Positions 2,180 to 8,641 of a DNA stretch of 13,708 bases are shown here, one piece after another. A model generated the notes under the pieces. It had not been told where the DNA came from. It saw only the letters and a program-made list of their open reading frames with translations, and ran no database searches. The position numbers and the translations under genes were made by a program. The stretch is from the NCBI GenBank assembly GCA_016839955.1, contig JAEOTI010000060.1, forward strand, positions 1 to 13,708, read 5' to 3'. This DNA comes from Candidatus Hodarchaeota archaeon. GTDB taxonomy: Archaea; Asgardarchaeota; Heimdallarchaeia; Hodarchaeales; YT1-057. How positions within the stretch are numbered: the first letter of the stretch is position 1; every line of letters starts with the position of its first letter.

Positions 2180-2197
2180 AGCGGCACTTGCCGAATA
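2180..2197 (+). other. 5' arm of bulge-helix-bulge processing site on permuted 5S
   Basis: Bases 2180-2190 pair with 2320-2330 (11 bp, one G-U). Bases 2191-2194 (CCGA) pair with 2313-2316 (TCGG), and 2195-2197 (ATA) form the bulge on this strand. The archaeal splicing endonuclease normally cuts between bulge bases 2 and 3, here between 2196 and 2197. CCGA copies the helix III strand 2296-2299, so the precursor and mature pairings are alternatives. Confidence 0.72.
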
Positions 2198-2318
2198 GTT
2201 AAGCTTACTAACGTTTCTGTCGCGTACTGTTCTGCGAGAGCGAACGGGAAAGCAGGAAAGCTGGGTTTTGCCCGGTCAAAGTAGTAAGGTTCCACCCGAT
2301 CTCGTTCCGATCTCGGAT
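2197..2318 (+). rRNA. 5S rRNA, circularly permuted
   Basis: All 5S elements are present on the plus strand in rotated order. First comes AGTTAAGC (2197-2204), the end of helix III leading into helix II 3'. Helix II pairs 2204-2209 with 2283-2288 (CTTACT/AGTAAG), then a bulged A2210, then 2211-2212 with 2281-2282; the bulged A is a 5S hallmark. Helix V/loop E includes GTACTG (2224-2229) and CGGGAA (2245-2250). Helix IV pairs 2229-2235 with 2240-2245, capped by a GAGA tetraloop. Helix I strands 2260-2265 and 2271-2276 are joined by TTTTG instead of being free ends. TCAAAG (2276-2281) is loop A. Helix III CCGA/TCGG (2296-2299/2313-2316) encloses a 13-nt loop C. Re-rotated, the order matches archaeal 5S exactly. 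The region is clearly richer in G+C than its surroundings. Predicted mature circle: 122 nt. Confidence 0.88.
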
Positions 2319-7144: not shown

Positions 7145-8053
7145 TTATTTAATTGTAGAAGTACTATCAAAACCAATAGCTTCTGGAGAAAAACTAGAAT
7201 CATTCTTGGTCATCACTGAAGCAAGGCTTCTTCCTTTATTAAAAGCTTTAGCAAGTATTAAGCCAACGTTGTCAGAAGTAATTATATTTGCTTCAACTGC
7301 AAGAGATTTTGCAGATGTTGCAGCACGTTGCAAGAGAAATCTAATAGTTTCAGGAGATGGATACGCAACTTCAAGGGCTAATGCAATAGCATTGTTATAG
7401 GCATTAGATATTTGTGCAAAGGTTAATTCCTCGTCTATTATAAGACTAGTTCCATCTATTAATTCCCCAGCTTCAAAAGCAGTTGTTACTGATAATCCTG
7501 CTTTAAATGGTAGAATTCCTAGTCTTCTTAGAACTTCAGCATGCGGTGGAGTAACTTCGTCTCCAATTTTTAGGATTTCAGTGTTTTTTGTTATTCGAAT
7601 TTTACCTCGTTCAATCCTTGTGGGAAGACCAAGTGCATTAAGTTGCCCAATAACAGGACCTGGTTCGAGATTTGTGCTTCCTGCAGGAATAGATACGCTA
7701 ACTGGTGATATTTGTCCAATTTTCGCGTATGCTGGCATTTGATTAGCAACAAGGAATTTTTGCAATCGAAAGGGGTTCATTTCAGTAAAAACTAAGCCGC
7801 AGGAGCCAACAAAATGATCAACCAATTTATCAATGCCTTTTTTCTTCTTTGCTGCTTCTTCTAATGCAATTTTTTTGATCGTATTTTTACCCACTTTAAT
7901 CTCTGTAGCTTTCTCTCTAAGCGAAGCACGAATTTTTTGGATCGTTGAAGATCCTATTCCTTCAAGTTGTACTACAGCAGCTGTTGGATAACGTTCTGCT
8001 AGTGAAACTATATCATTTATAATCTGTTTTTTCTGGTCGATTGCGGTACTCAT
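7145..8053 (-). CDS. Ribosomal protein L10 (uL10, archaeal P0), apparent early stop
   Basis: A 302-residue protein. The N-terminal 100 residues are the rRNA-binding domain (IVSLAERYPTAAVVQLEGIG; LREKATEIKVGKNTI). An insert domain follows, with the archaeal/eukaryal P0 segment LEPGPVIGQLNALGLPTRI (129-147) and GDEVTPPHAEVLRRLGI (163-179). The last third carries the helical spine where L12 dimers bind. The protein forms the base of the ribosomal stalk that recruits elongation factors. It stops at TAA after STIK, without the charged tail typical of archaeal L10; that tail lies in the same frame just downstream (7052-7144). The start is ATG at 8053 with a purine-rich leader (GGGGAAAGGAA). It follows Spt5 by 114 bp; the usual L11 and L1 genes between them are absent and L12 does not follow. 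Confidence 0.93.
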   Translation of the reverse strand: MSTAIDQKKQIINDIVSLAERYPTAAVVQLEGIGSSTIQKIRASLREKATEIKVGKNTIKKIALEEAAKKKKGIDKLVDHFVGSCGLVFTEMNPFRLQKFLVANQMPAYAKIGQISPVSVSIPAGSTNLEPGPVIGQLNALGLPTRIERGKIRITKNTEILKIGDEVTPPHAEVLRRLGILPFKAGLSVTTAFEAGELIDGTSLIIDEELTFAQISNAYNNAIALALEVAYPSPETIRFLLQRAATSAKSLAVEANIITSDNVGLILAKAFNKGRSLASVMTKNDSSFSPEAIGFDSTSTIK

Positions 8054-8167
8054 TTCCTTTCCCCTTTTCTCTGAAAGGCATATTTTTGATTCTTATTTGG
8101 TTGATCGTTGGTTCTAATAAGCTTTCAAGGTAATTTTATTGGAAGTGGATTTATTCATTTTCCATCA

Positions 8168-8641
8168 TCAATCAAGTTCGCCTGGTGTTTCTGATTCTCC
8201 AGTTCTTATTATTCTAACATAATCTGCATGAATCACAACTGGTATAGTTACAGGACTATCCATTAACTCTACAGTAACTTCTTCTCTAGGCATATTTACC
8301 TGGGAAATTTTAGCAGTGGAGCCTTTAAAAGGTCCAGATGTGATCTCTACTATATGTCCCACAGCGATTTGTTCAATATTGGGTGTGGGTATTAGTAAAT
8401 GTTCTAATTCTTTAATTGCTACTTTTCCCACAACCTTCGATCTAACATGAGGAATACCCGAAATTGCATCTTCAATTGCCATTGGGTGAGCTTCGATGAA
8501 TAAATAACCTTTAAGGGTTTCTGGAACTAATAAGGACATAACATTGAGCTGGTGTAAATTGACTTTTTGTTGAATAAGCATGGCAGCATTACGTTCCTGC
8601 CCAATAGTCGTACGTAGTGTAAATATAGCCTGACGAGCCAA
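8168..8641 (-). CDS. spt5: Transcription elongation factor Spt5 (NusG-like)
   Basis: A 157-residue protein, the archaeal Spt5 size. The NGN domain spans about residues 3-85: FTLRTTIGQERNAAMLI at the start, then ETLKGYLFIEAHPMAIEDAI (41-60), the segment equivalent to the conserved PGYVLVE core, and the IPHVRS loop (63-68). One KOW domain follows (VGHIVEITSGPFKGSTAKI, about 94-112). With Spt4 it binds the clamp of archaeal RNA polymerase and increases processivity. The start is TTG; MARQAIF aligns with the expected first strand, so little is missing. It lies 92 bp downstream of SecE and upstream of L10, the standard archaeal gene order, so co-transcription is likely. It ends in TGA. Confidence 0.94.
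   Translation of the reverse strand: MARQAIFTLRTTIGQERNAAMLIQQKVNLHQLNVMSLLVPETLKGYLFIEAHPMAIEDAISGIPHVRSKVVGKVAIKELEHLLIPTPNIEQIAVGHIVEITSGPFKGSTAKISQVNMPREEVTVELMDSPVTIPVVIHADYVRIIRTGESETPGELD

Follow-up and report, generated by a model that had tools for sequence, protein, structure and literature searches.

We report here a 5S rRNA gene whose parts stand in circularly permuted order. The window, by which we mean the whole contig analysed (13,708 nucleotides), holds at 2197-2318 of the forward strand a complete 5S rRNA in this order, as an earlier reading of the DNA made without database searches (the sequence-only reading) had proposed; this is confirmed. At the level of sequence, the identification as a permuted 5S gene in an Asgard archaeon is supported by two independent models that agree. 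What is new is the predicted role of the flanks, which would form a bulge-helix-bulge (BHB) with a cut product of exactly 2197-2318. We consider it very likely that 2180-2330 is a permuted 5S gene whose BHB-folded flanks are cut off by the tRNA-splicing endonuclease EndA, with the ends then likely ligated by RtcB, yielding a 122-nt circular 5S rRNA. For comparisons we used the clade groups of the database, namely a class of 58 genomes and a phylum of 227, the latter taken as Asgard from its named members.

All of the 5S elements named in the sequence-only reading are located where it had placed them. The body, on the forward strand as are all the features given here, opens with the 3' strand of helix II, including GTTAAGC (2198-2212), which pairs with 2281-2288 and 2292-2293 according to the alignment and the pair counts. 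It continues with helices V and IV, the loop E region (GTACTG ... CGGGAA) and a GAGA cap (2214-2258), and then with helix I (2260-2276), a closed hairpin in which the usual 3' and 5' ends are joined by a short T-rich loop. The 5' strand of helix II (2281-2288) and helix III with a 13-nt loop C between CCGA and TCGG (2296-2316, Rfam positions 27-51) complete the molecule. Helices V, IV, I and III and the 5' strand of helix II are each identified by covariation, and helix I by its computed fold as well. The permuted gene thus has the five helices, loops C and E and length of about 120 nt of an ordinary 5S (RF00001), but it is rotated, with the usual ends fused and new ends at the junction of helices II and III. 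Two details needed correction. The helix I ends are indeed fused through a short loop, but it has 3 nt in the computed fold rather than the 5 nt drawn, and the new ends do lie at the helix II/III junction, but the window's joined junction, TCGGAT|AGTTAAG, is 1 nt longer than the usual AA. This longer form is common to the window and to genomes G048-G055 of the class.

The swapped order can be seen directly with a profile of 27 ordinary Asgard 5S genes, which were taken from Rfam matches in other genomes of the phylum. On the unrotated window, this profile matches in two pieces that abut at model position 49|50. Positions 50-115 lie upstream and score 15.3 bits, and positions 5-49 lie downstream and score 25.9 bits, which is not the linear order of an ordinary 5S, running from the 5' strand of helix I to its 3' strand. 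Once the window is rotated, a single match spans model positions 5-115 at 52.3 bits; the best score among 200 doubled shuffles was 1.7 bits. The search of a rotated sequence with a 5S covariance model, which the sequence-only reading had suggested, was run in mirror image: 19 of the 27 ordinary genes were permuted in silico, aligned and made into a covariance model (R3), which matched 2197-2317 over all 120 model positions with 77.9 bits (E=4.4e-17). The same model gives 60.7-94.5 bits for 13 permuted relatives and 38.7 bits for one ordinary 5S (L288). A second model (R1), built from 11 permuted relatives with the window left out, matches 2181-2328 with 115.4 bits (E=1.3e-25), the E-values of both home-made models being rough.

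The Rfam models, by comparison, find no family in the whole window at E<=1, neither the linear 5S nor any other. When the linear 5S model is applied to 2150-2360, it gives two weak pieces only, as had been expected of the unrotated sequence: model positions 27-51 at 2294-2318 (16.0 bits, E 0.65), and a piece with the 3' part at 2198-2267 (14.4 bits, E 1.7). Both are under the 38-bit cut-off of RF00001, and they stand in swapped order, which is the expected view of a permuted gene through a linear model. A 5S match over the full length was obtained only with the permuted model of ordinary Asgard 5S.

Compensatory changes, which the sequence-only reading had expected in relatives, are found in an alignment of the window with 12 relatives. 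Across the 5S helices and the outer stem of the flanks, 97.6% of 539 cells are paired, against a shuffled mean of 80.0%, and both-sided changes occur in 26 of 42 pairs; the 5S helices account for 20 of these, among 35 pairs, and the outer stem for 6, among 7. Such values never arose in 500 shuffles, and slid controls reached at most 46.8% and 12 pairs. The changes are unevenly spread, with helix III showing one such pair only and the two-pair end of helix II none. The minimum free energy (MFE) fold of 2179-2332, at -54.1 kcal/mol, contains the outer stem and the CCGA/TCGG helix and leaves the ATA on the 3' side bulged; 4 of 200 shuffles were equally stable. The 5' bulge opens into a multiloop in this fold, so that the prediction has no inner helix on its far side. 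Folded by itself, the excised piece gives a canonical 5S with helix III, with no extra stability relative to shuffles (z -0.87).

The sequence-only reading makes no mention of the inverted repeat in the flanks, which tells more than any other part of the locus. In the best register of our scan, the leader strand 2180-2190 pairs with the trailer strand 2320-2330 in an outer stem of 11 consecutive base pairs, which is also paired in the MFE fold. Inside it, a leader copy of the helix III 5' strand (CCGA, 2191-2194) pairs with TCGG at 2313-2316 to give the central 4-bp helix, flanked by two 3-nt bulges, both ATA, at 2195-2197 and 2317-2319. The window thus has a BHB element at the new ends, and the 3' bulge is bulged in the MFE fold too. 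The archaeal splicing endonuclease cuts each bulge of a BHB after its second base, so cuts are predicted at 2196/2197 and 2318/2319 and would release exactly 2197-2318. These predicted ends coincide to the nucleotide with those that the sequence-only reading had chosen from 5S anatomy alone.

We surveyed the flanks of 120 permuted loci, including the window, many of which are close relatives and so not independent; L115, loci cut by contig ends and others (among them L108, L116, L171, L189 and L190) are outside this set. A strict BHB, defined as the right register with four of four central pairs and an outer run of at least 4, is present in 62 of the 120 loci, and the outer run is at least 6 in 49. 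When the flanks were base-shuffled and scored identically in 12,000 trials, these figures were 2.4% and 0.3%. The other 58 loci fail the strict rule; in the G021-G047 range of the class, 16 genomes have outer stems of 0-3 bp, most of them with the central helix kept. The 49 loci with six or more outer pairs have 37 different outer stem sequences. The central helix is fully paired in 20 of 32 distinct leader/5S combinations, where re-dealing expects 3.9 (maximum 11 in 5000), a count flattered by registers having been picked for pairing, so that the shuffled flanks are the fairer control. In two of the BHB registers, CCGG AA^G with CCGG AA^A and CGTG AA^A with CACG GA^A, the joined ends restore the canonical CGGAAGTTAAG.

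The sequence-only reading had suggested no processing of the transcript; the BHB provides for it, in a predicted pathway in which excision would act as a switch between two folds. In the transcript, the leader and trailer would fold into the BHB, with the leader CCGA paired to the TCGG at the 3' end of the 5S. The tRNA-splicing endonuclease would cut at both bulges, and once the flanks are removed the 5S's own CCGA would capture the TCGG, so that helix III forms; cutting would in this way decide the contest between the two CCGA copies and turn the processing fold into the mature fold. RtcB would then probably ligate the ends into the 122-nt circle, and ring closure would make helices II and III continuous again; helix I, usually the open end of a 5S, is already closed by its short loop. 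Among the 227 genomes of the phylum, which are relatives of the window, the EndA family is present in 226 and RtcB in 202. Of the 25 genomes with no RtcB match at E<=1e-20, at least 16 have a permuted 5S, and some of them may be incomplete. We infer the cutting, the ligation and the ribosomal use of the circle from these patterns.

A circle might also be an intermediate: after ring closure, the RNA could be opened in the helix I loop to give an ordinary linear 5S, just as permuted tRNA genes give ordinary tRNAs. The loop that caps helix I is short and variable in all 13 aligned members, and the nuclease FAU-1 acts in pre-5S processing in Thermococcales (PMC7758197). On the other hand, the aligned members have no more than a few nucleotides in this loop and show no conserved signal for cutting there, and we regard re-opening as unlikely. 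It shares cutting and ligation with the circular reading, so the probabilities that we attach to the two overlap.

Another question is whether the ends are joined at all, and here genes with a different breakpoint are informative. In six genomes (loci L197-L202) the gene is opened in loop C. In five of these loci, the BHB register CTGG AA^C / CCGG TC^A joins ACCCGGTC to CCATCCGAAC, and the resulting junction is the loop C of related genomes that have the usual break; in L200, the register joins ACCCAGAA to ACATTCCGAA instead. These BHBs have outer stems of 3-4 bp and tie with other registers, and in L202 another register outranks it; single cases are weak, and it is their recurrence that forms the argument. 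If the BHB were cut and the ends left unligated, the 5S of the ribosome would be permuted but linear, its two ends lying between helices II and III. Such an RNA could fold with no need of ligation, given that a short loop closes helix I in each of the 13 members of the alignment, and permuted 5S rRNAs are known from organelles, according to work cited in PMC10085705. We nevertheless find it improbable. RtcB, described in PMC4731332 as the joiner of such ends in archaea, is present in most of the genomes, and the junction rebuilds the usual sequence, in loop C as well (five of six genomes), which would be needless with open ends.

The gene may also have been opened elsewhere. L281 288-406 (G084 C63 7487-7605) shows a possible third opening, which would separate the helix II 5' strand from that of helix III; a BHB (CCGA AAA / TCGG AAA) was recognized there by eye only, the scan having chosen another register.

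How widely the permuted gene occurs was followed outward from 80 uL10 loci in named genomes. Of these, 20 that carry the labels Heimdall- or Hodarchaeota, Asgard or plain archaeon were traced into their genomes. The linear Rfam 5S cut-off is passed in just 1 of these 20, and a lone helix III/loop C piece is found in 7; inspection of these sequences revealed permuted 5S genes, 11 of which were used for R1. R1 matches 54 of the 58 class genomes at E<=0.01, and 3 of 58 pass the linear cut-off, one of these matches being bacterial by eye and one overlapping a permuted copy. Across the phylum, R1 matches 122 of 227 genomes at E<=1e-4, a second covariance model in loop-C order (R2) adds 16 further genomes, and 64 are over the linear cut-off. 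In total, 138 genomes have a permuted 5S, 59 a standard 5S only and 30 neither, for which incompleteness, strict filters or other permutations may be responsible. The R2 matches of G086 and G087 (38-45 bits) are standard 5S and were left out of the permuted count. In a control phylum (Woesearchaeota and kin), 1 of 279 genomes gave a borderline match to a permuted model (L288, 27.5 bits, E=0.001), and this match is a standard 5S by eye. When loci were rescored with R1, the common permuted order gave at least 39.9 bits, standard genes 17.6-24.1 bits and loop-C genes 20.2-23.8 bits.

The order itself was checked with a profile built from standard and rotated sequences and applied to 143 loci, six of which were standard controls. 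The swapped order is seen in 128 of the 137 candidate loci (124 genomes and the window), in agreement with the expectation that related Asgard genomes would share it, and the six controls gave one piece each. The 9 candidates with a single profile piece are the six loop-C loci, G084, G163 and G096. One of the permuted genomes, G174, belongs to Ca. Odinarchaeum yellowstonii, whose named PheS is 100% identical to the one encoded there. This genome is a single contig, and its permuted 5S has a 10-bp outer stem and a full central helix. All three of G001-G003, whose records are titled 'chromosome', have a permuted 5S, and G023, a single contig of 3,326,783 bases, has two copies.

Both forms are over threshold in five genomes (G008, G110, G045, G028 and G134). 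With 5 of 138 permuted genomes also having a standard match, the two gene forms are nearly mutually exclusive. These five genomes are what favours the view that the permuted locus is a rearranged pseudogene while a standard 5S gene elsewhere does the work, but the standard matches in G008 and G110 are bacterial by eye and that in G045 overlaps the permuted copy. Given also the compensatory changes in the 5S helices, the near ubiquity of the permuted form in the class and the near absence there of the standard one, we judge a pseudogene very improbable, and these sequence patterns support the earlier view of the locus as a functional 5S rather than a decayed copy. L192 (G134 C263) and L188 (G028 C117) are 5S-like sequences in standard order, from genomes that possess a permuted 5S too, and contamination is possible. 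An assembly or chimera artefact, for which it could be said that the window is a 13.7-kb contig, can practically be dismissed, since the swapped order recurs throughout the candidate loci, including the 'chromosome' records and the single-contig Odinarchaeum, and the flanks are matched and covarying.

Returning to the circular product and taking breakpoints and distribution together, we lean towards a broader proposal. In much of the Asgard phylum, the ribosomes would work with a 5S rRNA that is a covalently closed circle, produced by the tRNA-splicing machinery from a gene opened in at least three places (the helix II/III junction, loop C and the 5' side between helices II and III), each at a BHB. 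Selection would then keep the circle and not the order of the gene.

Several genes carry extra sequence or extra copies. In permuted 5S genes, inserts of about 30 nt are found in loop C in L184, L195, L272, L273, L275 and L277, near the helix IV cap in L186 and L203, and at both sites in L185. The predicted circles of the insert-bearing genes measure 149-181 nt, compared with about 120 (the circle of L185 is left out of this range); the inserts could be further BHB introns or retained expansions. L120 1501-1798 holds two permuted 5S genes in tandem, with 16 nt between the model matches. The helix II sequences of the two copies differ, as do their processing stems, each of which matches itself. 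Three standard 5S genes of equal score stand in tandem in L204 (G087 C1 1399692-1400958), in a single-contig genome of the phylum (4.36 Mb), and tandem standard copies of this kind are a plausible starting point for a permuted gene. In some assemblies, contigs break in or at the edge of a permuted 5S body (G009 C112 start and C28 end; G045 C90, C106 and C132 starts; G028 C261 start), as if copies with a common body and different flanks had been collapsed in assembly.

The closest parallel is the SRP RNA of Thermoproteus. In Thermoproteus tenax, as for the permuted 5S, an essential archaeal RNA comes from a permuted gene, the conventional gene had been thought missing, and the leader and trailer form a BHB, at which endonuclease cutting and ligation give a circle (PMC4731332). 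There, circularisation has been demonstrated, whereas the 5S circle is predicted only. The SRP case also concerns a non-ribosomal RNA in Thermoproteus species (PMC4731332), whereas the permuted 5S occurs in 138 of 227 genomes with at least two breakpoints. Permuted 5S rRNA genes have been described from mitochondria (Valach et al., 2014, as cited in PMC10085705). They concern the same RNA, and the gene is likewise circularly permuted, but they are organellar, unlike that of the window: its contig carries an archaeal uL10 and an archaeal 5S model is matched, which does not fit an organellar origin. Archaeal 23S rRNA is known in circular or permuted forms with BHB processing stems (PMC7758197 and PMC12918454), but there an ordinary gene is transcribed and the RNA is circularised or permuted afterwards, while here the 5S gene itself is permuted. 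Evidence for circular 16S and 23S rRNAs in Asgard archaea is reported in PMC12918454, where the pure-culture studies mentioned give circles for 16S and 23S and not for 5S.

Among open-access full texts (a set with few subscription papers and no preprints), we found no account of a permuted 5S gene on a chromosome or in an archaeon. The authors of closed Heimdallarchaeum genomes were unable to predict 5S genes by various approaches (PMC8813620). The 5S seems to be missing from such genomes likely because the halves of the gene are swapped. A universal ribosomal RNA is encoded out of order across much of a phylum, where the Rfam linear model misses it. Where the presence of a 5S gene is made a condition of genome quality, as in PMC13036324, these lineages are likely to be put at a disadvantage. 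Should the ring be confirmed, circular 5S rRNA would be present in working ribosomes and the role of the splicing machinery would extend from 16S and 23S to 5S. The Asgard phylum contains the closest known archaeal relatives of eukaryotes, and a confirmed ring would bear on the ribosome of their archaeal ancestor.

The surroundings of the gene offer a few minor observations. A scan for bacterial-type promoters gave 3 promoter-like sites (1.1 expected, sd 1.2), one for bacterial-type terminators gave 0, and no tRNA was found near the permuted 5S. By eye only, an AT-rich TATA-like stretch can be seen at 2163-2169. The uL10 of the window's contig has its nearest named relatives in Heimdallarchaeota and Hodarchaeales. 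Together with a NusG/Spt5-like gene (named by eye), uL10 lies on the reverse strand at 7145-8641 of the window, about 5 kb downstream of the permuted 5S, and in L285 (G093) an Spt5-like gene, again by eye, lies about 4 kb from the permuted 5S.
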